This document shows, piece by piece, positions 577-42,196 of a DNA stretch of 61,623 nucleotides. A program made the translations under genes and the position numbers. How positions within the stretch are numbered: position 1 is the first letter of the stretch; each line of letters opens with the position of its first letter. This DNA is from a virus. Location of the stretch: IMG/VR virus record IMGVR_UViG_3300030061_004427, positions 1 to 61,623 of that record; one strand, given 5' to 3'. Below the pieces are notes generated by a model. It did no database searches. It was not told where the DNA came from and saw only the letters and a program-made list of their open reading frames with translations.

Positions 577-1320
577 TCAAACCTTGAGTGCCATATCCCA
601 TACAAGTAAATGCAATCTTGGACTAAAATTGAAATGATGTTTTTTAGCCATCTCAGCTACCATAGGAGCTGCTTCAATATGTTCGTCTCTACTCCCACAA
701 CAAGGCATTAACCAAATTCTACCTGTTGGTATATCAAATGGGTCTATATATTTTTCAAATATTTCATCTAAATCAGATTCTTTATTAACCACGAATTTAA
801 ACCCAGACCCATTTGTAGAATGCCAATCTAAAACTTCTGGTTTATATCTTCTATCTTCTGGATCACCATTATTAGCTAATTTAGGTGATGTAGTAAAGGT
901 TGCTTTTAATCTTACCCATTCTGGGTCTGGCATTATAGTTGCATTAGTTTCAAAATCCATACGTGGTACCCAACCCCATTCAACATCCATATATTGTATA
1001 AATCTCAATAATGAAGGTTGTTGTACTAATGGTTCACCACCTGTAATTTTTAGTAAAGCACCATTCTTAAGATGTTCAGTATACCCACCGTCGTCCAACA
1101 TAGAAAGTATTTCCGTAAAACTCATTTTATTTTTTACCTTCCAAGATATAAAGCTATCACACCCATGAGGTGCTGTTGCACTTGCAAAACCCTTACATGT
1201 AAGATTACACATAGATAATCTCATGAAAACCGAAGGATAACCAACGAATTCACCTTCACCTTCTACAGTATAAAATATCTTATCATCACTAAGAAATATA
1301 TTTCCTTCACCTAATTGCAT
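577..1320 (-). CDS. queE: QueE, 7-carboxy-7-deazaguanine synthase (radical SAM)
   Basis: QueE converts 6-carboxytetrahydropterin to 7-carboxy-7-deazaguanine in the preQ0 pathway. The 247-residue protein shows the YTVEGEGEFVG start typical of the family and a glycine-rich KITGGEPLVQQ segment near residue 93. The 4Fe-4S cysteines are C38 and C42, but the third comes only at C54 instead of three residues on, so the usual CxxxCxxC is split by an insertion. It has an early-type promoter with an 8-nt spacer. folE, queD and queC lie elsewhere in the window, so the phage carries the whole route. Confidence 0.9.
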   Translation of the reverse strand: MQLGEGNIFLSDDKIFYTVEGEGEFVGYPSVFMRLSMCNLTCKGFASATAPHGCDSFISWKVKNKMSFTEILSMLDDGGYTEHLKNGALLKITGGEPLVQQPSLLRFIQYMDVEWGWVPRMDFETNATIMPDPEWVRLKATFTTSPKLANNGDPEDRRYKPEVLDWHSTNGSGFKFVVNKESDLDEIFEKYIDPFDIPTGRIWLMPCCGSRDEHIEAAPMVAEMAKKHHFNFSPRLHLLVWDMALKV

Positions 1321-2278: not shown

Positions 2279-3124
2279 TTATCCTCTTGCTGGTGCATAA
2301 GGATCTGACGGCTTATCAGAACCCCAGCTGGTACCACCAAATGGATCACCGGCATCGTGTGTTTTAGGTCCTGCGCCAACTCTTGCACCCACTTCTTTAG
2401 TTCTTTTCGAACCGGGTAACATGCGTTGTCGTTCATCTTCATCCTCAATTTTTTTCTCTGCTGCTTCTTTACGTTTTTCAGCCTGTTCATCAATCCTTTT
2501 CTTTTCGTCCATAGGATCTATTTTTTCACCCATTTCATGTAAAGGTGTTGACTTAATAAAATCTTTAGGATTTGCTTGTGGTCCGCATGCTTCTGCTTCT
2601 CTATAAGCATCCCAGTCAACGTTTCCTGTGTCGTCGGTATATTTTGCATGTTCGGGACCAGTAAATCTCATACTTTGTGTAACAATTTTAGTAAATACAA
2701 CACTATTATCTTCATGCTCAAAGACTTCAACCTTTTCAACCCAACACCTATCATTTGTTGCTGCTTTTATAAAAAAATCTGCGGTATCGTAACACCACTC
2801 AGCAATTCTCTCACTACCAGTTCCATTAGACATGATCCTCAGATCACAAGCACCAGCTTTTTCAAGTTGTTGAAAAATAGGTAAAACAGGATCATTAGCA
2901 GCAATGCAAGTTGTATGGTCAAATTGATTTTTTAATTTTTCTTTAAGACCTTTTAACCCACCAAAATCTACTACCCAATTATTTTCGTCTAGTTCATTAG
3001 CCCCAAACCAAAATTTTGCTGTAAGATTGTAACCGTGTAAAAACTTGCAATGTGAATGATTTGCTTTCGGTTGTCTAAAAGCACAGCTACCCAATTCAAT
3101 AACTTTAGTACTCTGAAATTTCAT
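2279..3124 (-). CDS. queD: QueD-like 6-carboxytetrahydropterin synthase with C-terminal extension
   Basis: QueD makes 6-carboxytetrahydropterin from dihydroneopterin triphosphate, the step after FolE. Residues 1 to about 165 show the family layout: HSHCKFLHGYN (catalytic Cys plus metal His), VVDFGGLK and FDHTT. The canonical metal ligands differ: the FxAAH histidine is absent (SCAFRQ) and HGH reads HGY, a variant I recall from other phage QueD-like proteins. Residues 165-281 form a charged, low-complexity tail not found in the usual 120-170-residue enzymes. An early-type promoter precedes it. Confidence 0.82.
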   Translation of the reverse strand: MKFQSTKVIELGSCAFRQPKANHSHCKFLHGYNLTAKFWFGANELDENNWVVDFGGLKGLKEKLKNQFDHTTCIAANDPVLPIFQQLEKAGACDLRIMSNGTGSERIAEWCYDTADFFIKAATNDRCWVEKVEVFEHEDNSVVFTKIVTQSMRFTGPEHAKYTDDTGNVDWDAYREAEACGPQANPKDFIKSTPLHEMGEKIDPMDEKKRIDEQAEKRKEAAEKKIEDEDERQRMLPGSKRTKEVGARVGAGPKTHDAGDPFGGTSWGSDKPSDPYAPARG

Positions 3125-6303: not shown

Positions 6304-6966
6304 ATGTCGGAAAGAGTTAAAGAATTTTTATTACCAACAGCAAATAGTTCTGCACCCAGAACAGACGAAGAAAAACAATCAATTATTAATAACGCTGCTA
6401 ATGCTTATGAAGCATATCTAGATGCCCTTGGTTTTGATTGGAGAAATGATCCTAATAGTGATAATACACCAATGAGAGTTGCAAAGGCATTTGTTAATGA
6501 TATGGCAGCTGGTTGTTATGATTCGCCTCCTAAAGTTACGTCGTTTCCTTCTGATGGTTATGACGGTATAGTATTTCAAGGTGGTATTCCTATTAAGAGC
6601 CTTTGTAGTCACCATCATTTACCTTTTACTGGAAAAGCACACGTTGCATATATTCCAAGCTTGGATGGTAGAGTGATTGGTCTTAGTAAGCTTAATCGTA
6701 TTGTTGAATATTTTGCAAGACGTCCTCAGATTCAGGAAGGTCTTACTATGCAGATTCAAAAAGCTATTGATGAAGTATGTGAATCAAATGCAGGGGTTGC
6801 AGTATTAATTAGTGCAACACATACTTGTGCTTGTTTACGTGGTGTTAAGCATGATGGTTGTGCTATGATGACATCAAAATTAAGTGGATCATTTTATGAT
6901 GATGAAAAAACAAGAGCAGAATTTTATCACTTTGTTGACTCTTGGAATAGATCACCTTCAATCTAA
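6304..6966 (+). CDS. folE: FolE, GTP cyclohydrolase I
   Basis: FolE turns GTP into dihydroneopterin triphosphate, the first step of preQ0 (and folate) synthesis. From ATG 6304 the protein has 220 residues. Zinc ligands are visible as C101 and the HHH at 103-105 (SLCSHHHLPF) and C175/C177 in HTCACLRGV. The catalytic core is full length. The frame extends upstream to TTG 6268, but that stretch is the promoter. Together with queD, queE and queC this gives the whole phage preQ0 route. Confidence 0.93.
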   Translation: MSERVKEFLLPTANSSAPRTDEEKQSIINNAANAYEAYLDALGFDWRNDPNSDNTPMRVAKAFVNDMAAGCYDSPPKVTSFPSDGYDGIVFQGGIPIKSLCSHHHLPFTGKAHVAYIPSLDGRVIGLSKLNRIVEYFARRPQIQEGLTMQIQKAIDEVCESNAGVAVLISATHTCACLRGVKHDGCAMMTSKLSGSFYDDEKTRAEFYHFVDSWNRSPSI

Positions 6967-29078: not shown

Positions 29079-30329
29079 ATGTTTCAAGTACCATTTCAAG
29101 CCAAACCTTTCGGGAATACTAACCCATTTCAAAATAATTTTGCTGTAGGTGGAGGTAAGCCACACGGTATAAATGAAAAGCCTACACCTGCTTCACTAGG
29201 AGGAACATCACCAGAATCCATACCACGATTTATGAATTATGTGGCTGATTATGGTGGTTGTGGTTATTGGAGAGTTATATGGCCTGAATATCTTTTAAAT
29301 GCTAGTGGTAAGTGTATGGTACACACCTCAACTTGTATGACTTTGGACCCACAACACTATAGACATTGTAAAGCACTAAAAATTCAAAGACAGGCATCTC
29401 CAGATCATTATAGATTTACCAAACACTTAAAAGAAGTATCAAAAGAACATGGTTTTAAATTAATTTACGAAATTGACGATATACCTTTTAGAGAAGACAT
29501 ACCAGATTATAACAAATACAAATTTGCTTTTACAGACGATGAAGTAAGAGAGAATATTCAAAAAATTATGGAGTTGTGTGATGAAATGACAGTTACTTGC
29601 AACTTCATGAAAGAGTATTTCACAGAAAAACTGGGTGGTAAATTACCTATTACTGTTATACCAAATTGTGTGCCTAAATTCTGGATGGGTAATTACTATA
29701 ATAGAGATAAAGTTGAGCGAGATTATGAAAAATACAAACGGAAACCAAGAGTTATTTGGTCTGGATCGGGTGCTCATATAGATGTAGATAGAAGAGTAAA
29801 AGGTAAAGATGATTTTCATCATATAAATGACGCAGTTAAGAAAACAATAAACGACTTTCAGTGGGTATTTACGGGTGCAGTGCCTCGTGAACTAGTTCAT
29901 CTTGTTGAAAATGGTAAAATAGAATTCCATCAATGGTCAGAACTTTTTAATTACCCAGAAAAAATATATACCCTTAACGGTAATATGATGATAGCTCCTT
30001 TAGTTGATAATAATTTTAACAAATCAAAAAGCGATTTAAAATATTTAGAAGCTAGTTGTTACGGCTTACCTATTGCTTGTCAAGATATTTGCACATATGA
30101 AAATGCTCCAATAAAGTTTAACACGGGTGATGAAATGGTTGATCAAATAAAAACCGTATTAAAGGATGAGAGACGCTTTATAAAAGAATCTGTAACTGGT
30201 AGAAATTTTGCCGAATCGAGATTTTTGGAAAAAGAAGAAAATATTGGAAAGTTTTTTGAATCATATATGTTCCCATATGGGTCACCACAACGTAAATTTT
30301 TAAACACTTTAGATATTAATAAAACATAA
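29079..30329 (+). CDS. GT4-like glycosyltransferase
   Basis: 416 residues from ATG 29079; the frame is open to a TTG at 29043 inside gene 46. The first 50 residues are Pro/Gly/Asn-rich. GGCGYWRVIWP, LIYEIDDIPFRED, TVIPNCVPKFW, RVIWSGSGAHID and DLKYLEASCYGLPIACQDI are the ordered blocks of a GT-B enzyme, the last being the donor-binding E-x7-E region (here E...C). Acceptor unknown. Confidence 0.72.
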   Translation: MFQVPFQAKPFGNTNPFQNNFAVGGGKPHGINEKPTPASLGGTSPESIPRFMNYVADYGGCGYWRVIWPEYLLNASGKCMVHTSTCMTLDPQHYRHCKALKIQRQASPDHYRFTKHLKEVSKEHGFKLIYEIDDIPFREDIPDYNKYKFAFTDDEVRENIQKIMELCDEMTVTCNFMKEYFTEKLGGKLPITVIPNCVPKFWMGNYYNRDKVERDYEKYKRKPRVIWSGSGAHIDVDRRVKGKDDFHHINDAVKKTINDFQWVFTGAVPRELVHLVENGKIEFHQWSELFNYPEKIYTLNGNMMIAPLVDNNFNKSKSDLKYLEASCYGLPIACQDICTYENAPIKFNTGDEMVDQIKTVLKDERRFIKESVTGRNFAESRFLEKEENIGKFFESYMFPYGSPQRKFLNTLDINKT

Positions 30330-30900
30330 TAGTCTTCATTTCATCAGACATGTAATTTAATGTTAACGGGTATTCTCCGGCATCGAGATCTTGAGGAACA
30401 ATAACCATTTTATGTTTTGATTTTATTGATTTTATCTTTTGTGTCAATCCTTGCTTTAGTTCGTCTGATTGATTATGTTGATATACATCTTTACAAAGCA
30501 ATAAATCGAACTCATCATCACTTTCAAATTTAAAAAGATCACTACATATAAACTTTTTTGTGGGGGATGATAATTTTTCTATATTTGATTCTATTACAAT
30601 TTGTGAACCATCAATACCTGTATAATCAAGTTCACTAAATGTGTTGGAAAACGGTAACCATTGCATTGCACCACAACCAATATCTATTAAACTTTTTATT
30701 TCATTCTTTATTACAAAATCATCAAATATTTTTATTAATTCCTCGTTGTGTTCTAATAAACTACCAGCTCCTGAACCTTGTCCACCATAGCCCCCGTTTT
30801 TATAAATTTCATCCCATTGTTCTGCTGTTAATCGGGTATGGTCATATTTGGGAAACAAATATGTTTCAAACCATTCTTGTACTTCTTTACTGTTGCTCAT
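30316..30900 (-). CDS. SAM-dependent methyltransferase
   Basis: 194 residues, class I fold. Motif I is LIDIGCGAMQWLPF near residue 72, the acidic end of strand 2 is YTGIDGSQ near 93, and motif IV is FDLLLCKDVYQH near 133. Probably modifies a small molecule or sugar, since no DNA-methylase NPPY-type motif is present. It overlaps the GT32-like gene by 14 bases, which suggests a shared glycan substrate. Confidence 0.75.
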   Translation of the reverse strand: MSNSKEVQEWFETYLFPKYDHTRLTAEQWDEIYKNGGYGGQGSGAGSLLEHNEELIKIFDDFVIKNEIKSLIDIGCGAMQWLPFSNTFSELDYTGIDGSQIVIESNIEKLSSPTKKFICSDLFKFESDDEFDLLLCKDVYQHNQSDELKQGLTQKIKSIKSKHKMVIVPQDLDAGEYPLTLNYMSDEMKTIMFY

Positions 30901-31789
30901 ATATCCAGTGTTTTGTTAAATCAGACCAGTGGTGTGTATCGAAATTTTTATAGAATTCTTTCCTGTATTGATAAAACAATTCTTGGTTGAAATAAGTTAT
31001 AGGTTCTTCTTTAAGTAAAAGATCTGGATCTAGTTCGTAACCATCTAAATTACCGGCGCTGATACAAAATGTTGAAGTAAAACACCAAGGTACTTCTTTC
31101 TTGGTGGTAGTATGTTTACATTCATACAATGCAGATCTAATATCTTCTTCCATCATCCTCCAGTTAAGACCGTTACCTTCTTTTTTTCGATCATACCCGG
31201 TAAAACCAAAAAGTGTATTGAAGACGGTTTTACTCCAAGTTATTGACCCTAATATTAATATTTTATTTTTCGTATCTTCGTAATTTAACGATTGATTACC
31301 TAATTGCGTTCTCTCTTCAATATTATCTTTTATAGCTTGTTTAAATATTGGGTTTTTTGGTGCCGTGCCCATTAAACAATGAGCAAAACCAAAATCTTCA
31401 TGCGTTGGTAAAATGAATTTTATATCTTCGGTAATAAAATCATCAAAAGATATATTACAATATCTATCCAAATCGTGATACACCCCACCTTCATTGTAAA
31501 GTTTTATTAATCTCCATAAATCTGTTTTTTCTACAACATGCGTATATTTTATATCATTATAATCTTTAGACGATAAATTTTCTTTAAGATAATCTTCCAC
31601 ATCTTGATCATCACTAATAACTACATCCCACTCCGGATTTAAATCAATCATTTTTCTTAACCCATTTGTTATCATAGGGTGATTGTTATCCTTTATGTTT
31701 TTATCTTTCCATGTAAAGTTAATTATTTTAGGTATTGTATCTAGATCTTCTAATAAGAAATCATTCACAACTTTATTTACTTGAATCAT
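30887..31789 (-). CDS. GT32-type glycosyltransferase (DXD sugar-binding)
   Basis: 300 residues. IPKIINFTWKDK at the start, EKTDLWRLIKLYNEGGVYHD near 123-142 and the LDRY that follows form the Gly_transf_sug (Och1/capsular sugar) signature with the D-x-D. It is divergent from gene 43 and translationally coupled to the methyltransferase. Confidence 0.82.
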   Translation of the reverse strand: MIQVNKVVNDFLLEDLDTIPKIINFTWKDKNIKDNNHPMITNGLRKMIDLNPEWDVVISDDQDVEDYLKENLSSKDYNDIKYTHVVEKTDLWRLIKLYNEGGVYHDLDRYCNISFDDFITEDIKFILPTHEDFGFAHCLMGTAPKNPIFKQAIKDNIEERTQLGNQSLNYEDTKNKILILGSITWSKTVFNTLFGFTGYDRKKEGNGLNWRMMEEDIRSALYECKHTTTKKEVPWCFTSTFCISAGNLDGYELDPDLLLKEEPITYFNQELFYQYRKEFYKNFDTHHWSDLTKHWIYEQQ

Positions 31790-31816: not shown

Positions 31817-34411
31817 ATGTATAGGAACGTAGTTTATGAACCGTCTTTAGAGCAAATGAGACTTTACACTTGGGATGAAGACGGTAACAGAATAGAAGTT
31901 TTACAAAGCTATAGTCCATATCTTTATATTGAACCTAAAGACAAAAGGCATTCGAACGCAACATCAATTTATGATACACCTTTAAGAAAAATGGTGTTTA
32001 GAAGAGAGTCTGAAAGAAGACATTTCATTAGAAACAATGGAATAAAAAGACTCTTTGAAAATTTACCAATTAAACAACAGTTTTTATTAGATAATTTTTG
32101 GCAAGTAAACGAAACAGATGATTTTACTAAGCATCCAATTAAAATGCTTTTATTGGACATTGAGACTTATTCACCAGATGGGTTTCCAAATATTGAAAGT
32201 GCAAATCATGCAATCAATGTTATTACAGTTTATGATAATTTAGAGAAAAAATTTTATACTTGGGGTACAAAAGAATATAATGGTAAAGGTAGAGATGATG
32301 TAAAATATACCTATTGTGAAACCGAAAGGGTATTGTTTGCAAAATTTTTAGATTATCTCGAACAAGATTATCCAGATATTTTAAGTGGTTGGAACTCTGA
32401 GTTCTTTGATATTCCATATATTGTAAAACGTTGTGAACGAATAATGGGTGAAGAGCAAATGAAAAGACTTTCACCTGTAAAGAACGTTTATTATAGAAGT
32501 TTACAAGGTGCTTTTGGTAGACAGCAAATTAGATGGTATATTGAAGGTATAGCTTTATTAGATTATTTGGACATTTATAAAAAGTTTGCACCATTACGTG
32601 AATCATATAAGCTTGATGCAATTGGTGAACTTGAGTTAAATCAACGTAAGGTAGATTTCCAAGGAATGGACTTGGCAACGTTGTCTGATGTAGATTGGGA
32701 TAAGTTTATTGATTACAATATTCAGGATGTTAATCTGCTTGTAAGACTAGAAGAAAAGCTTCAATATTTGGGGTTAATAAGAATGTTAGCTTATGTTGGT
32801 TGTGTAACTTTTGATGCAGCAATGGGAGCATTATCTGTAATCAATGGTGCTTTTTGTATTCGTGCAAGACATAACCAACATATAATTCCTACTTTTATAC
32901 GAGGTGAAGATACTGGTAAGAACCCAGGTGCATATGTGGGGGAACCACAACAAGGATTTCAAAACTACATATTATCTTTTGATGCAAACAGTCTATACCC
33001 AAATGTGATGATATCTTTGAACTTATCACCCGAGACAAAGATTGGTAAAATTTTACAAAAAGATGACAAAGAAGTGGTCATGGAAATGGTAAGTGGTAAA
33101 GTAAAAGAATTTACAATACCAATGTTTGCTAAAATGATAAAAGATTACAAGCTTACAATATCAAAAGCAAACGTAGTATTTCATCAACAAAAGAAAGGAA
33201 TAATACCTGAGATTGTTGATTATTATTATCAAAAACGTAAAGGGTTTAAAGATGAGTATAATGAGTTAAGGAAGAAACATTCAAAGATGAAGAAAAAAGA
33301 TCCTGATTATGAAAAAATTGGGATTGAAGCTCAAAGAGCTGGAACAAAACAATTAACGGTTAAAATTTTGATTAACTCGATATATGGTTATTTTGGTAAC
33401 AAAAATGCTCCTATTGGTGATGATGATATTGCATCATCTGTAACATTAAGCGGTCAAGCAGTAATCAAACAAAGCAATATAATTATTAGAGACTTTATTA
33501 AACTTAAAACGGGGTTAACAGATGATGATCTAAAGAAAAAGGACCCAATCATTTATAATGATACAGATTCATCATATGCATCAATTGAATTGTTAATAAA
33601 ACATTTAGGGCTTAATTTTAAAAATGAAAGCGGTGAAGTACACCAAGATATATATACGTTGGAAGATGAATTAGTAGAGTATCTTAATAAACAAATAATG
33701 ATATGGGGTAAGAAAACTTTCAATAGTAAAGATTGTAGGTTTGTATTTAAACGTGAGTGTATTGCTGAAGTTGGGGTGTTCTTACAAAAGAAACGATATG
33801 TAATGAACATACTTGATGATGAAGGTGCTAAGATAAACAAAACAAAATATACTGGGGTAGAGGTAGTTAGAACGACATTGCCTAATTCATTAAAACCTCA
33901 TATGAAAAACGTTATTGAAACAATGCTTAGTACGCAAGACTATCAAAAGACGAATGAAGCTATGAAAGTGGTTCATGAAAAATTTAAAGATCTACCTATT
34001 ACAGATATTGCAAGTGTTATGGGGTTAAAAGGTTATGAAAAGTATGCTGGTCAATGTGATAATATGAAGACGGTTAAGGGTATGCCAATACATTGTAAAG
34101 CAAGTTACTTTTATAATCAATTATTAAAATTGCATAAACTTGATAAAAAATATGAAACGATAGGATCAGGAGATAAGGTTAGATTCTTTTATGTAAAAAA
34201 ACCAAACAAGTATAATGTTGATTCAATTGCATACAAATATGAGTGGCCAGAAGAATTTGACGCATTTTTTAAACCTGATTATGATAAAATTTATCAAAAG
34301 CTAATTTTTGCTCCTATCGAACGGTTTTATAACGCAGTAAATTGGAAATGTTATTTACCTAACCAAGCAGTTCAGTGTGATTTGTTTAGTCTTTTAGCAG
34401 AAAATGAGTAA
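31817..34411 (+). CDS. 43: gp43-like family B DNA polymerase
   Basis: 864 residues (T4 gp43 is 898), apparently intact. The 3'-5' exonuclease Exo I motif is LLLDIETYSP at 111-120. Polymerase motif A is SFDANSLYPNVM near 387-398, motif B region KILINSIYGYFGN near 516, and motif C YNDTDSSY near 580. The end QCDLFSLLAENE is hydrophobic and acidic, in the place of the T4 clamp-binding tail. A GT60-like gene overlaps its last 8 bases. Confidence 0.96.
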   Translation: MYRNVVYEPSLEQMRLYTWDEDGNRIEVLQSYSPYLYIEPKDKRHSNATSIYDTPLRKMVFRRESERRHFIRNNGIKRLFENLPIKQQFLLDNFWQVNETDDFTKHPIKMLLLDIETYSPDGFPNIESANHAINVITVYDNLEKKFYTWGTKEYNGKGRDDVKYTYCETERVLFAKFLDYLEQDYPDILSGWNSEFFDIPYIVKRCERIMGEEQMKRLSPVKNVYYRSLQGAFGRQQIRWYIEGIALLDYLDIYKKFAPLRESYKLDAIGELELNQRKVDFQGMDLATLSDVDWDKFIDYNIQDVNLLVRLEEKLQYLGLIRMLAYVGCVTFDAAMGALSVINGAFCIRARHNQHIIPTFIRGEDTGKNPGAYVGEPQQGFQNYILSFDANSLYPNVMISLNLSPETKIGKILQKDDKEVVMEMVSGKVKEFTIPMFAKMIKDYKLTISKANVVFHQQKKGIIPEIVDYYYQKRKGFKDEYNELRKKHSKMKKKDPDYEKIGIEAQRAGTKQLTVKILINSIYGYFGNKNAPIGDDDIASSVTLSGQAVIKQSNIIIRDFIKLKTGLTDDDLKKKDPIIYNDTDSSYASIELLIKHLGLNFKNESGEVHQDIYTLEDELVEYLNKQIMIWGKKTFNSKDCRFVFKRECIAEVGVFLQKKRYVMNILDDEGAKINKTKYTGVEVVRTTLPNSLKPHMKNVIETMLSTQDYQKTNEAMKVVHEKFKDLPITDIASVMGLKGYEKYAGQCDNMKTVKGMPIHCKASYFYNQLLKLHKLDKKYETIGSGDKVRFFYVKKPNKYNVDSIAYKYEWPEEFDAFFKPDYDKIYQKLIFAPIERFYNAVNWKCYLPNQAVQCDLFSLLAENE

Positions 34412-37022: not shown

Positions 37023-38627
37023 ATGGCAAATATTGCTATCTACGGTTCGCATAACGGTGCAATTGCTTTAGAAGACAATGATGAATATTACGTTATTGAA
37101 TTTGAACGATTTTTTAATATTAAAAATATTGGTCTGGCTCAATACAAACCATTAAAATTTAGAGAAGAAGCCGTTTATGCTATTTTACAATATCTGGAAA
37201 AGGAATTAGGTTACCCAACACCCTTTGATAACTTACTTCATATTAATACTGAATGTGTACATGACGATATAACATACAGTTATAAAAATTTTATTGATGC
37301 TAATACGGTACTTGAAGGTTGGCACCACCACGCACATGCAAGTGGGTCCTTTTATCAATCTAATTTTGAAAAAGCTTTAATTTTTAGTTTTGATGGTGGT
37401 GGTAATGATGGGTTCTTTAATATATTTACTGCTAATCGGGAAGACGGTGTAACATATTTAGATAAAACAAATCCAGCTGATCGAACAGACTATGATTACG
37501 ATTTTGGATTTCCATATATGTGTTTTGCGCACTTTTGTCCTGATATTAGACAGGAATGGATATCAGATGGTAATTTAGTTTATAGTGGTAAAATTATGGG
37601 GCTGTGTAACTACGGGAACATAAACAAAGAATGGTTACCACACTTTAAAAAGTTTTATTATTCTAAACCTGATGGAGAAGATTTTTATAAAAAGTTAAAA
37701 CAATATATTACTGATACATGTGGGTTGGTATTTGATGAAAATAAAAGACTTGAAAAAGAAATTAGCTGGGACGTAGCAGCTACTTCTCAAGCTGCATTTG
37801 AAGAATGTTTTTTTGAAGTAGTAGACCCTTATTTGAAAAAATACCAAGACCTACCTATCATTATAACTGGTGGTTGTGGTCTTAATATATTGTTAGCCTC
37901 CAAAATAAAAACGCTATTTCCAGAAAGACCAAGTTTCGTTGCACCAAATACAAATGATTGTGGTATTGCTTTGGGTTTGTTAGCTGGGTTTAAAAAACCT
38001 AAAAAACCTATTGATATCACTTACGGTGGTATGGAGCTTTTAGATAAAAACACATACCCTGCTTGGATAGAAAGCAATTCTGCCAAACCTGTCAATCTTG
38101 GTCATATTGCTACAGAATTAGCAAACGGTAAAATCTTTGGATGTGCTAGAGGAAGGTCCGAACACGGGCCAAGAGCACTTGGTAATAGATCAATTTTTTG
38201 TAATCCTGCTTTTCCTGAAATGAAAGACATTCTCAACTTTAAAGTAAAAAACAGAGAGTGGTATAGACCGTTTGCACCAGTATGCAAATTAGAAGACGTT
38301 TCTAAATATTTTGAATGGGAAGGGGAAAGCCGTCATATGCTTTATTGTCCTACAGTAAAGAAAGAATGGAAAGAAAAATTATCATCTATTACACATATTG
38401 ACGGTACAGCAAGAGTACAAACAGTGACAAGAGAACAAAATCAGTTCTTATATGATCTTTTAACCGCTTTTGAAGATGCAGCTGGTCATGGTGTGTTATT
38501 GAACACATCTTTTAACATTGCTGGTAAACCAATTTTGAATACTATATCCGATGCAATGAAAGTCTTAGAGGGTACACAAATGGATTACCTAATAATTGAA
38601 GACTTTTATTATGGTAAGCATTGGTAA
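37023..38627 (+). CDS. Carbamoyltransferase (NodU/CmcH family)
   Basis: 534 residues. GWHHHAHASGSFYQSNF near 100 and SFDGGGNDG near 124 belong to the YgjD-like half, and GRSEHGPRALGNRSI near 379 with REWYRPFAPV near 417 belongs to the C-terminal carbamoyl-binding half. The enzyme moves a carbamoyl group from carbamoyl phosphate onto a sugar or nucleobase hydroxyl through a carbamoyl-AMP step. AAGGAT lies just upstream, 4 bases after uvsX. Phage homologues occur in DNA hypermodification and glycan clusters. Confidence 0.9.
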   Translation: MANIAIYGSHNGAIALEDNDEYYVIEFERFFNIKNIGLAQYKPLKFREEAVYAILQYLEKELGYPTPFDNLLHINTECVHDDITYSYKNFIDANTVLEGWHHHAHASGSFYQSNFEKALIFSFDGGGNDGFFNIFTANREDGVTYLDKTNPADRTDYDYDFGFPYMCFAHFCPDIRQEWISDGNLVYSGKIMGLCNYGNINKEWLPHFKKFYYSKPDGEDFYKKLKQYITDTCGLVFDENKRLEKEISWDVAATSQAAFEECFFEVVDPYLKKYQDLPIIITGGCGLNILLASKIKTLFPERPSFVAPNTNDCGIALGLLAGFKKPKKPIDITYGGMELLDKNTYPAWIESNSAKPVNLGHIATELANGKIFGCARGRSEHGPRALGNRSIFCNPAFPEMKDILNFKVKNREWYRPFAPVCKLEDVSKYFEWEGESRHMLYCPTVKKEWKEKLSSITHIDGTARVQTVTREQNQFLYDLLTAFEDAAGHGVLLNTSFNIAGKPILNTISDAMKVLEGTQMDYLIIEDFYYGKHW

Positions 38628-38645
38628 GTAATATATACTCATTTT

Positions 38646-39437
38646 ATGGATAAAAAAGCTGTAATGATTTTTAGTGGTGGTATGGACAGTGCTGCCATGC
38701 TAAGAATGGCTCAATTTCAATCGGGTGAGCTACACTGTTTAACTTTTGATTATGGTCAAAGGCATATACGCGAACTTGAATGTGCAAAGACACAAATCGA
38801 ACATGCAAAGTTGGTTAGCTTTAGTCATAATTTTGAAGATTGTGAAGTAATACACAAAGTGTTAGACGTTTCATTTTTAAAAGAGTTACTTACTACAAGT
38901 TCACTTACTAATACAGACATTGATAATCCTGATGTTAAAGATATGGTAGGGGAAGCACAACCGGTAAGTTATGTGCCATTTAGAAATCAATTGTTTTTGA
39001 CAATAGCATGTGCATATGCAGAATCAATTGGTGCTGAAACTGTTTATCATGGTGCAACTCAAGTTGATAGTTTAGCTGGTTATTGGGATGGTAGTGCAGA
39101 ATTTCAGGAACACTTTCAAACGTTAATAGGGCTAAATAGAACACACCAAATTACTCTTAATTGCCCGTTACTTAGTATGAGTAAACAAGCTATTGTAGAG
39201 TTTTGTGTTGGTAGTAGGGTTGATCTAAAATATACATACACTTGTTATAGTGGTGATGAACTTTCTGATGCAACCACACCAAGCAGTTCATTACGAATTA
39301 AAGGGTTTGCAGATGCAGGTTATATTGACCCAATTGAATATAAACAAGATTTAACCAAATATTGGGAAGACAATAAATGTAAACCGTTTCCTATTAATGA
39401 GGTATTTTCTGATAGATTTGGAACCAGAGGTCCTTAA
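38646..39437 (+). CDS. queC: QueC-like 7-cyano-7-deazaguanine synthase with degraded zinc site
   Basis: 263 residues. QueC uses ATP and ammonia to turn 7-carboxy-7-deazaguanine into preQ0. The PP-loop is SGGMDS at 10-15 and FDYGQRH at 34-40 matches the family. The C-terminal zinc motif keeps only C200 (TYTCYSG); the three Cys of the usual CxxCxxC block are absent, the region reading ATTPSSSLR. A TATACT is 6 nt before the ATG, with no clear -35. A class II amidotransferase gene follows 1.5 kb downstream. Confidence 0.88.
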   Translation: MDKKAVMIFSGGMDSAAMLRMAQFQSGELHCLTFDYGQRHIRELECAKTQIEHAKLVSFSHNFEDCEVIHKVLDVSFLKELLTTSSLTNTDIDNPDVKDMVGEAQPVSYVPFRNQLFLTIACAYAESIGAETVYHGATQVDSLAGYWDGSAEFQEHFQTLIGLNRTHQITLNCPLLSMSKQAIVEFCVGSRVDLKYTYTCYSGDELSDATTPSSSLRIKGFADAGYIDPIEYKQDLTKYWEDNKCKPFPINEVFSDRFGTRGP

Positions 39438-40195
39438 TGCATATATTTGATAAGGATAAAATATCAAAAATAGGGTACACTGATGATACAGCGTTTTCAT
39501 CGCATAGAATCTACTTAGAATATGTAGTAGATTTTCTGTATAAGAAAAACGGTAACAAACAACTTAGTATTTTAGAGTGCGGTACAGGTAACGGTAGTAG
39601 TGATTACTTTAGTAAAATTTCAAAAGAGGGAAAAGCTAAAATTTGGGGTATAGAATATCATAATGTTCCACCTGAAAACTGGTATGAACAAATGAAAGAA
39701 AAATATGCAAACGAAAACTACAAAATTACTCATGAGCAACAGGGTATATGGGTTTTTGGTTCAGAATATTTTCATAAGTTGGACGATCACTACGATATAA
39801 TTTTTATAGATACAAGTGGGTACGAAAACAGAGCAAACTGGGTAAAATTTGCAGCAAACGATACCAGTAAAGTAGTAATTCTTCACGATAGCGAACACTT
39901 TCATAGATTTAAACCCTGGTTATTAGAATGGGTAACAAAGAATTTTAAATTTGTTTATGATTCATGGCCTATACAGGAACCCGGGACGTTGTTTGCTAGT
40001 AATATTAATTTACAGTGTAATTTAAAATATGAAGGAAGGCACGACGATTTACCTGACAGAACAGAACAGCCAGAAATGGATCCCGAAGTTCATGGATTCC
40101 CAAAACAATGTCATAATGAGATCTCAAAGGAGGAACAGATGAAGAGATATGAAGACTCTCTCAAAGAAGATGATTGGGGTCACCAACCTTGCTAA
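39437..40195 (+). CDS. SAM-dependent methyltransferase-like protein
   Basis: 252 residues. ILECGTGNGSSDYFSK near 44 is motif I, KIWGIEYHN near 68 the motif II acidic residue, and DIIFIDTSGYE near 114 motif IV. The C-terminal 60 residues are charged and Pro-rich. Overlaps the queC stop by one base, with AGAGG 6 nt before the ATG. Substrate unknown; possible partner in sugar or base modification. Confidence 0.65.
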   Translation: MHIFDKDKISKIGYTDDTAFSSHRIYLEYVVDFLYKKNGNKQLSILECGTGNGSSDYFSKISKEGKAKIWGIEYHNVPPENWYEQMKEKYANENYKITHEQQGIWVFGSEYFHKLDDHYDIIFIDTSGYENRANWVKFAANDTSKVVILHDSEHFHRFKPWLLEWVTKNFKFVYDSWPIQEPGTLFASNINLQCNLKYEGRHDDLPDRTEQPEMDPEVHGFPKQCHNEISKEEQMKRYEDSLKEDDWGHQPC

Positions 40196-40378
40196 TTAGT
40201 ATAAAATAGGTAAACAGAGTGCTACAGTAAAATAACTTTGTAATTCTGCATCAGCTAATAAGTTTGCAACCCCCATATCCTGATTAGGAAAAGGAAAATT
40301 TCCACTGCCTGATAATTTAGTAGAACTCGTACCGGTGAAGCGGGTATCTAAATATTGATAACCTAATTCTACTTCCAT
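40196..40378 (-). CDS. Small unknown protein, downstream of 40380-40934
   Basis: 60 residues with a polar N-terminus (VELGYQYLDTRFTGTSSTKL) and a hydrophobic end. It begins one base after the stop of the preceding minus-strand gene, which favours a real co-transcribed gene, and ends directly against the converging methyltransferase-like gene. No domain recognised. Confidence 0.45.
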   Translation of the reverse strand: MEVELGYQYLDTRFTGTSSTKLSGSGNFPFPNQDMGVANLLADAELQSYFTVALCLPILY

Positions 40379-40379
40379 T

Positions 40380-40934
40380 TTAATAATCTTCTAATTCTTC
40401 GGACTCTTTATCAGTAGCAGTAAAATCTTGATACGCTTCGATTTCTCCTAACTTATCGGGATCTACATCATCTACAGGGGCTTCCTCTTCACCAAAAACT
40501 TCATCTAATAACCCCAACAGAATCATATCTTTTAAGATTTTTTCTGCCTCTTTTTGATCTTCTATTTTTGAAGCAAAGTCAACAATTTCTTTTGCTGTGG
40601 TTGGCCTAACTTCTACAAAACCAACTATATCTTTTTGTAACCCTTTTAACGGGGTTTCATAAGCTGCGTCTGCTACCTTAAATTTTCGCTTACCTAAAGC
40701 AACTTTTTCTTTTTCCACCGGCTTTTTAAATCTAGTAGATCTGCTTCTTGCTCCCCCACCACCACGAATACCCTTAATTCTCATCATCATCTCATAATAT
40801 GATTCTTTTCTTTCTTCTCCTGTCTCAGGGTCGGCAACAACTTTTCTTACTCTATCTTCAAACTGTTTTTTTCTTCCTTCTGTTAAAGACTCTTGGTAAG
40901 ATTCGTAAAGAAACTGGGTATCTTTATCTTTCAT
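40380..40934 (-). CDS. Late-type protein with CTS-like N-terminus
   Basis: 184 residues. The N-terminus MKDKDTQFLYESYQESLTEG has LYE and LTE sites like capsid-targeting leaders. A basic region with Gly-rich and Arg/Lys segments (RIKGIRGGGGARSRSTRFKK) follows, then an acidic helical C-terminus. A DNA-binding, head-internal role is plausible. The late-type box is 7 nt before the ATG. Confidence 0.62.
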   Translation of the reverse strand: MKDKDTQFLYESYQESLTEGRKKQFEDRVRKVVADPETGEERKESYYEMMMRIKGIRGGGGARSRSTRFKKPVEKEKVALGKRKFKVADAAYETPLKGLQKDIVGFVEVRPTTAKEIVDFASKIEDQKEAEKILKDMILLGLLDEVFGEEEAPVDDVDPDKLGEIEAYQDFTATDKESEELEDY

Positions 40935-40935
40935 A

Positions 40936-40963
40936 TTGAAATATTTATTAGATACTTTATAAT
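40936..40963 (+). promoter_or_regulatory. Early-type promoter of the amidotransferase operon
   Basis: TTGAAA, 16-nt spacer, TATAAT, 8 nt to ATG 40972. The divergent late-type box lies inside its spacer. Confidence 0.72.
40942..40949 (-). promoter_or_regulatory. Late-type box (AATAAATA)
   Basis: AATAAATA, 7-nt spacer, ATG 40934, on the opposite strand inside the early promoter for 40972. Confidence 0.6.
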
Positions 40964-40971
40964 ATAAACAA

Positions 40972-41613
40972 ATGTGTGCAATATTTGGTACTTCAGATAG
41001 ACAACAATTTATAACGTTGTATGAACTTAATAAAGATAGGGGTGGTTATGCATCTACTTTTTGTGGTATAAAAGATGGTAAGTTACATGTTTTTAAAAAT
41101 AAACTATTTGATTTAGATAATGTATACTTAGAGGATTGGGATTATTATTTGGGTCATCATCAAGCTCCTACTGGTAAAGTACGGAAATATAGTGAAAAGA
41201 CTTCTCATCCATTTAACTATGGAAGGTGGCATGTAGCTCATAATGGTGTTTTAACCAATTATAGAGATATAACAGAATCAAGTGATACCAAAGACATAGA
41301 TACATCATATATTCCAGCGTTTATGGAAGAATTAGATTATTTACCGGTAAAATGGGATGATAAACAAATATTAGAAGAAACATTTAGTGCATTTAAAGGA
41401 ACCCATACATGTTGGATTTGGGACGATAAAAATAGTATTGTATATTTAACTAAAAATGGTAGTACTTTATTTTCAAATGGTACAACATTTTCATCAGTTC
41501 AATATGATGGTGGTAAACCGTTATTAGATGGATATGTATATATGATGCATGAAGGCTCAGCATTTTTAGAGTATGTAAAATTCGAAGACAGCAACCCGTT
41601 TGCAGTTTTATAA
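40972..41613 (+). CDS. Class II glutamine amidotransferase
   Basis: 213 residues. MCAIFGTSD places the catalytic Cys at residue 2 (exposed after Met removal), and GHHQAPTG near 62 and HPFNYGRWHVAHNGVLTNY near 81 complete the Ntn-type glutaminase pocket. No synthetase domain is attached, so it must pass ammonia to a partner. QueC is the nearest candidate; in some phages and Crenarchaeota a similar domain is fused to QueC (Gat-QueC) and makes archaeosine. Another sugar aminotransfer role is possible. Confidence 0.85.
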   Translation: MCAIFGTSDRQQFITLYELNKDRGGYASTFCGIKDGKLHVFKNKLFDLDNVYLEDWDYYLGHHQAPTGKVRKYSEKTSHPFNYGRWHVAHNGVLTNYRDITESSDTKDIDTSYIPAFMEELDYLPVKWDDKQILEETFSAFKGTHTCWIWDDKNSIVYLTKNGSTLFSNGTTFSSVQYDGGKPLLDGYVYMMHEGSAFLEYVKFEDSNPFAVL

Positions 41614-41617
41614 AACT

Positions 41618-42196
41618 ATGCAAGATTTATTAGATTATAAAGAGACTTTAGATCCAAGTAACCGTGCTATCTATGACTTATTTGAAAAATATAAACCCGA
41701 TTCTGGTATATTTGTAGAAACCGGTTGTCATTTAGGGGGTGGGTTAACTAAAGCAGTACATGTTGGTTTTACTAAACTGTATTCATGTGATATAAATTTA
41801 GAAAGGGTAGAACATTCAATTGAGTTAATGTCAGAAATGGCCATGTATGGTTCAATAATTGACCCTTGTATTTTTAACTCCGAGTCTATTGTTTTTCTAA
41901 TGAACGTTTTACCACTTATACAAGATGATCAAGTTATGTTTTGGCTCGATGCTCATGATGAGGGTGGTGGGGTACCTGTTCTACAAGAACTTGATTTAAT
42001 AAAAGCAATATGTAAAAATAAAAATAGCCCCATCTTAATTGATGACGTGCCTCTTTATCTAGAAGAAGAGGGGGTTGATTATCTTAAAAAAACAATTTTA
42101 GAAATAAATGAAAACTACGAATTTGAACAAATTAAAACTAACGATGGTGGTAATTATGTTATTGCTGCTAGCGTAGTTGAAAAAGAGGAAAAGTAG
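41618..42196 (+). CDS. Methyltransferase-like (Rossmann) protein
   Basis: 192 residues from ATG 41618 (a TTG at 41600 lies inside the amidotransferase gene). IFVETGCHLGGGLTKAV near 31 resembles motif I, KLYSCDINLERVEHS near 52 motif II and VMFWLDAHDEG near 107 motif IV of class I methyltransferases, in the form seen in phage and sugar-cluster FkbM-like proteins. Four bases after the amidotransferase stop. Role unknown. Confidence 0.6.
   Translation: MQDLLDYKETLDPSNRAIYDLFEKYKPDSGIFVETGCHLGGGLTKAVHVGFTKLYSCDINLERVEHSIELMSEMAMYGSIIDPCIFNSESIVFLMNVLPLIQDDQVMFWLDAHDEGGGVPVLQELDLIKAICKNKNSPILIDDVPLYLEEEGVDYLKKTILEINENYEFEQIKTNDGGNYVIAASVVEKEEK

Follow-up and report, generated by a model that had tools for sequence, protein, structure and literature searches.

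A zinc-less QueC and a stand-alone glutamine amidotransferase as a putative two-protein preQ0 synthase in a phage genome fragment

The virus record IMGVR_UViG_3300030061_004427, a linear fragment of 61,623 bp and 33% GC (called the window below, meaning the whole stretch analysed), encodes a QueC-family enzyme that has lost its zinc site and, downstream on the same strand, a stand-alone class II glutamine amidotransferase (GAT). We propose that these two proteins probably act together as a two-subunit, glutamine-dependent synthase of 7-cyano-7-deazaguanine (preQ0). GAT would hydrolyse glutamine and hand the ammonia to QueC, which with ATP would convert 7-carboxy-7-deazaguanine to the amide and then to preQ0. 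The base would subsequently be swapped for guanine in phage DNA by a transglycosylase of the tRNA-guanine transglycosylase (TGT) type encoded outside the fragment, presumably DpdA2 in KVP40-type phages and a DpdA3-like protein in sister marine phages. The features that carry the argument are the following.

38646 to 39437, plus strand: QueC-family enzyme (PF06508), 263 residues, zinc-less; Pfam QueC E=2e-48 (165 bits against a cut-off of 22), PHROG 1550 E=2.7e-50
39243 to 39296, plus strand: former zinc site of QueC, residues 200-217, CYSGDELSDATTPSSSLR, from an alignment of 33 QueCs
40972 to 41613, plus strand: stand-alone class II GAT, 213 residues; PHROG 12378 E=6e-12

Results

QueC and GAT occur together

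The QueC stop and the GAT start lie 1,534 bp apart in the window. Searching 50,697 phage records with GAT by tblastn (E<=1e-5) gave six matches, all Vibrio phages; in five of these GAT directly follows QueC, overlapping or touching it, and in 2.275.O it is the next gene, 32 bp on. With a looser limit GAT reaches many KVP40-like phages, where it again stands beside QueC; in nt-1, KVP40 and 1.081.O the two genes share one base. KVP40 GAT as query returned 51 records, including Pseudomonas phage pf16, in which GAT comes directly after QueC (11 bp apart) and beside a DpdA2 that is 31% identical to that of KVP40. A zinc-less QueC directly adjoins GAT in the genomes G053 and G056. Wherever a window-type locus contains the pair, both genes are on one strand and GAT lies downstream of QueC, although what stands between them changes.

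Among 23 larger viral records, GAT was found in all 11 that carry QueC and in none of the 12 that do not (Fisher p=7e-7, which is indicative only, since the records are related and not independent); the pattern is also seen across separate phage groups. Campylobacter phage CPt10 has a QueC and no GAT detectable in the parts searched, so that GAT implies QueC and not the reverse. No cellular relatives of GAT were found in a search of genome contigs.

GAT resembles the Gat domain of fused Gat-QueC

GAT belongs to phrog_12378, annotated as 'unknown function', and its Pfam matches are below threshold (GATase_6, E=5e-4, 20.5 bits against a cut-off of 27; GATase_7, E=8e-4). The best AlphaFold model (predicted local distance difference test, pLDDT, of 81) matches the GlmS glutaminase domain when compared with the PDB by Foldseek (E=3.5e-10 to 1e-9), and its fold also matches PurF. 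The residues of a class II (N-terminal nucleophile) enzyme, namely the nucleophile Cys2, the oxyanion pair N91-G92 and D110, are invariant in 13 GAT sequences.

GAT was also compared with the fused Gat-QueC of phages. A profile of GAT aligned to the Gat domain of four such proteins by hhalign with a probability of 97.5 (E=8e-12, 172 columns). Against single sequences, GATs of the window's clade score 42-51 with the four Gat domains, compared with 32 for GlmS, 33 for PurF and 25 for AsnB, and a search of the viral BFVD with the GAT model ranks the fused enzyme from Pantoea phage Vid5 first (E=3e-12). On profile and model, GAT appears to be of the Gat-QueC Gat-domain type. The fused enzymes of phage 9g and its relatives likewise combine a class II Gat and a QueC with FolE, QueD, QueE and DpdA, and GAT has its nearest relative in their Gat domain. 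They differ in being one polypeptide, whereas in the window QueC and GAT are encoded separately, with QueC first, and in their QueC part. The QueC of the pair falls in a supported clade (99/97) apart from the Gat-QueC clade (100/100), although some long branches in the tree leave its deep joins unsure, and it has motifs of the YGQxH type and YWD in place of the Gat-QueC signatures YG(C/S)xAE and YPDN.

The zinc site of QueC is lost in one clade

The window protein was aligned with 32 other QueCs. It keeps the SGGMDS P-loop (residues 10-15), YGQRHIRE (36-43) and VPFRN (110-114), while the canonical motif YPDC reads GYWDG, with Tyr and Asp kept and Pro and Cys changed. The equivalents of E. coli QueC Y35, R99, Y131 and Y189, found to be essential in a 2026 mutagenesis study (PMC13329287), are all kept in the alignment. 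In place of the canonical zinc site C(x)8CxxCxxC the window QueC reads C200-YSGDELS-D208-AT-T211-PS-S214-SLR: one ligand, C200, is kept, the other three are replaced by D208, T211 and S214, and the catalytic-type Y201 is retained within the segment, which has no insertions or deletions relative to zinc-bearing marine relatives. Canonical bacterial QueCs (E. coli, B. subtilis) share with it PF06508, SGGxDS, YxQxHxxE, VPxRN and the essential tyrosines; the window protein differs in being zinc-less, in having YWDG for YPDC and in its GAT partner. By these motifs it is classed as a zinc-less PF06508 variant and not as a canonical QueC.

The loss is common to all 13 zinc-less QueCs compared. Relatives down to about 52% identity keep the segment that has taken its place, D-x-T/N-T/S-P/A-S-S-S/A-L-R-I/L-K-G-F, with minor differences, which argues for a maintained variant and not for decay; in the window's clade the zinc site has gone and the catalytic residues are kept. 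The zinc-less proteins form one clade (support 99/95), and its neighbours in the tree are marine T4-like phages with all four cysteines in their QueC. Read from the tree, the zinc loss is a single conserved event in the window's clade, separate from the pairing with GAT. We had considered it as a marker of the Gat/QueC split, a link made in an earlier note on this DNA, and dropped the idea because GAT also partners QueCs that keep all four cysteines.

The preQ0 gene set and its neighbours

Three further genes of the pathway lie towards the left end of the window; the window also carries the T4-like replication genes gp43 and UvsX.

577 to 1320, minus strand: QueE-like radical SAM (S-adenosylmethionine) enzyme, 7-carboxy-7-deazaguanine synthase; PHROG 2076 E=9.8e-44
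2279 to 3124, minus strand: QueD-like 6-carboxytetrahydropterin synthase; Pfam PTPS E=5e-15 over residues 16-144, PHROG 2389 E=5e-35
6304 to 6966, plus strand: FolE, GTP cyclohydrolase I; Pfam E=2.9e-49, PHROG 2197 E=6e-63

The gene set FolE, QueD, QueE and QueC, which the earlier note had read from the letters, is confirmed by PHROGs, and for FolE, QueD and QueC by Pfam as well. Its coordinates and the 1.5-kb spacing of QueC and GAT are all correct; the loss of three zinc cysteines is borne out by the alignment, and the stand-alone class II amidotransferase by PHROG, fold match and active-site residues. As part of the explanation favoured here, the window probably encodes a phage preQ0 pathway made up of these four enzymes. 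QueD also has a charged, repetitive C-terminal extension (about residues 147-281, roughly 130 residues) that lies outside the PTPS domain and is unmatched.

A Nol-like carbamoyltransferase gene (phrog_1601, E=3e-120; 37023-38627) lies 18 bp upstream of QueC; it is conserved at this position in the window's subclade and is not at this place in G053, G030, G035, G040 and G022. Its target could be a sugar or the DNA base. Two proteins around QueC and GAT (39437-40195 and 41600-42196) have ECGTGNGSS- and ETGCHLGGG-like motifs, no Pfam or PHROG match, and occur in some relatives only; judging from these motifs they are perhaps SAM-dependent methyltransferases. Two observations fall outside the pathway. 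In the related genome G013 (L018/L019) the gp43 DNA polymerase occupies two reading frames about 1.2 kb apart (29919-31442 and 32646-33680), a possible intron or split polymerase, and the record CAKLQF020000007 (L036, 'Acinetobacter phage MD-2021a') has the bacterial chromosome genes cysU/W, dapD and purL around queC and looks like a misfiled host contig.

A TGT-fold protein in related genomes

DpdA2 (phrog_10773) was not found in the window's relatives. A hypothetical protein, phrog_19058 ('unknown function'), is common to marine QueC+GAT genomes and Campylobacter phage CPt10. Very small alignments of TGT, DpdA and DpdA3 gave hhalign no power, and structure prediction with Foldseek was used instead. 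The model (pLDDT 90) has eight strands alternating with helices, and all 50 of the PDB matches listed are tRNA-guanine transglycosylases (E=9e-9, TM-score about 0.7). The motif aspartates D54 (LLDNSIFEL) and D212 (DTSNP) are invariant in 21 sequences, the marine and Campylobacter phage proteins share 45-46% identity, and the homolog in Flavobacterium phage immuto is annotated 'DNA guanine transglycosylase ... DpdA'. From the Campylobacter and Flavobacterium homologs we take phrog_19058 to be, probably, the DpdA3 family, which is associated with complete replacement of guanine. The DpdA3-like protein is present in G028, G030, G035, G040, G053 and G056, and the last two are sister genomes of the window that carry zinc-less QueC and GAT.

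The DpdA of the window's own lineage was sought by walking outward from QueE, the right-end gene and the portal gene. For the closest relatives, G017 and G019, the contigs stop at the portal gene or soon beyond it, short of the region near gp23 in which the sister genomes have DpdA3. The fragments of G072, G073 and G075 (portal 80-85% identical) contain neither DpdA3 nor a detectable major-capsid gene, and scanning for DpdA3 a second time turned up no contig linked to this lineage.

Genomes with the DpdA3-like protein repeatedly carry a phosphoribosyltransferase (phrog_8995), and in Flavobacterium phage immuto a phosphoribosyltransferase likewise stands beside FolE and DpdA. Such an enzyme might recover guanine set free when the base is exchanged.

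phrog_8995 loci: L201:15683-16123; L219:10286-10741; L233:3861-4331; L446:475-963; CPt10_1911; L529:843-1238

In the 217-kb IMG/VR record G038 (L096) QueE and QueD are accompanied by a distant DpdA3-like protein (E=8e-19), with neither QueC nor GAT, and this gene content makes it a candidate for 7-carboxy-7-deazaguanine in DNA.

Discussion

Gene content, motif loss, linkage, co-occurrence and folds are direct observations, and from them we infer that QueC and GAT form a complex through which ammonia is transferred, that preQ0 is the product and that it is inserted into DNA. The suggestion of the earlier note that QueC and GAT work as separate partner proteins is well supported by adjacency, by the co-occurrence in 23 records and by the likeness of GAT to the Gat domain. 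Among the closest known arrangements is that of the KVP40/nt-1-type Vibrio phages (Schizotequatrovirus, Mylasvirus), in which FolE, QueD and QueC are likewise found and QueC is followed directly by a GAT of the same family; their QueC differs in having four zinc cysteines, and their cluster includes a DpdA2, which is absent from the window. An analogy, and only that, is offered by the archaeal two-subunit GMP synthetase, in which a PP-loop ATP enzyme and its glutaminase are encoded by separate genes (PMC13329287); this synthetase differs in its substrate and in its glutaminase family (PF00117).

Several observations weigh against the proposed preQ0 synthase. Two genes, one of them on the opposite strand, intervene between QueC and GAT in the window, which precludes translational coupling of the two there. 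The GAT model is only moderately confident (best pLDDT 81, other models 42-63), and the usual glutamine-binding Arg (GHTRWAT in GlmS) is Gln64 (HxQAPT) throughout the GAT family. Zinc is described as required in canonical QueC (PMC13329287), and the zinc-less form might therefore be altered or inactive. No TGT or DpdA was recognised in the window by PF01702, the DpdA2 PHROG, a DpdA3-type profile or a scan for TGT motifs, as the earlier note had also reported, an absence that says little in a 61.6-kb fragment; PF01702 itself proved uninformative as a test, since it misses the known DpdA2 of nt-1, KVP40 and 1.081.O. Nor was a transglycosylase found in the window's closest relatives, whose contigs end early or lack the gp23 region. 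The idea that a DpdA lies elsewhere in the genome is plausible, since related genomes carry the TGT-fold protein; this protein was not found in the window's own closest lineage.

The product of the pair can be approached through phages whose DNA has been analysed. In nt-1 the modified deoxynucleosides amount to 232 dPreQ0, 72 dADG (the amide form) and 44 dG+ (2'-deoxyarchaeosine) per million nucleotides, in a study that credits an ArcS homolog (PMC6884629), and in Schizotequatrovirus 6E351A 15% of dG is present as dPreQ1, which is credited to QueF (PMC12028318). Both phages are in the group with QueC, GAT and DpdA2, 6E351A being taken, by its name, as Vibrio phage 6E35.1a of our GAT matches; the text of the two papers, as searched, does not name a stand-alone GAT. 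Conversely, gat-queC of 9g does not complement an E. coli queC mutant, and almost only dG+ is made (PMC6884629). The base data of nt-1 and 6E351A are a better fit to glutamine-dependent preQ0 synthesis than to archaeosine synthesis.

It is in this light that a split Gat-QueC has to be judged, in which the pair would make the archaeosine base (G+), or turn preQ0 into G+ in DNA, as in 9g. Its case lies in the closeness of GAT to the Gat domain and in the trace of dG+ (44 per million nucleotides) that PMC6884629 gives for the pair-bearing nt-1. The pair's QueC, however, belongs to a separate clade without YG(C/S)xAE and YPDN, and 9g gives almost only dG+ (PMC6884629) where the GAT+QueC phages have mainly dPreQ0 (nt-1, PMC6884629) or dPreQ1 (6E351A, PMC12028318). 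We regard this reading as unlikely, and the archaeosine-like product put forward in the earlier note is unsupported on the same grounds.

Quite improbable is a role of GAT in halting QueC at the amide (ADG) or biasing it towards that product, so that dADG would enter DNA as in Campylobacter phages with the DpdA3-like protein. The identity of 45-46% between the marine and Campylobacter proteins and the presence of some dADG in nt-1 are consistent with it, as is the high dADG modification reported for the Campylobacter phage group (as cited in PMC6884629). These Campylobacter (Firehammervirus) and Flavobacterium immuto phages share preQ0-type genes and the TGT-fold protein with the sister genomes of the window. 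They differ in that the searched parts of CPt10 contain no GAT, which implies that GAT is not needed for dADG, in that their QueC is very distant, and in that their type of transglycosylase was not found in the window lineage.

It is improbable to a still greater degree that the pathway serves queuosine (Q) in host or phage tRNA, with preQ0 raising Q levels and DNA left unmodified. The window has no DpdA, and a 2019 survey proposed just this for preQ0-pathway phages that lack one (PMC6884629); yet related QueC+GAT genomes carry DpdA2 or the TGT-fold DpdA3-like protein, two of them together with a zinc-less QueC. That GAT serves another partner, for example in sugar amination, with its nearness to QueC accidental, is scarcely credible, for despite the intervening genes and a region rich in sugar-nucleotide genes (epimerases, carbamoyltransferase) there are the direct adjacency in other phage groups, the exact co-occurrence and the persistence of both genes while those between them vary.

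The glutamine-dependent preQ0 synthase proposed here seems to be a two-protein form, so far unrecognised, of a DNA-protection pathway already known from phages. A more far-reaching form of it, which we hold to be doubtful, concerns the zinc-less clade: GAT and a zinc-independent QueC would constitute a distinct glutamine-driven 7-deazaguanine synthase and, with a DpdA3-like transglycosylase and a guanine-recycling phosphoribosyltransferase, would allow most or all genomic guanine to be replaced by a 7-deazaguanine base. If this were so, the zinc site of QueC would be dispensable when ammonia is channelled, and the zinc-less QueC is in any case a natural test case for the role of zinc. The proposed synthase would provide a function for phrog_12378, a family of 'unknown function' whose members neighbour QueC in dozens of phages, the classic KVP40 among them, and suggests the source of nitrogen for the DNA base in QueC+GAT phages. 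For marine T4-like phages it also brings phrog_19058, probably DpdA3, into this pathway, which makes their DNA base predictable and testable.

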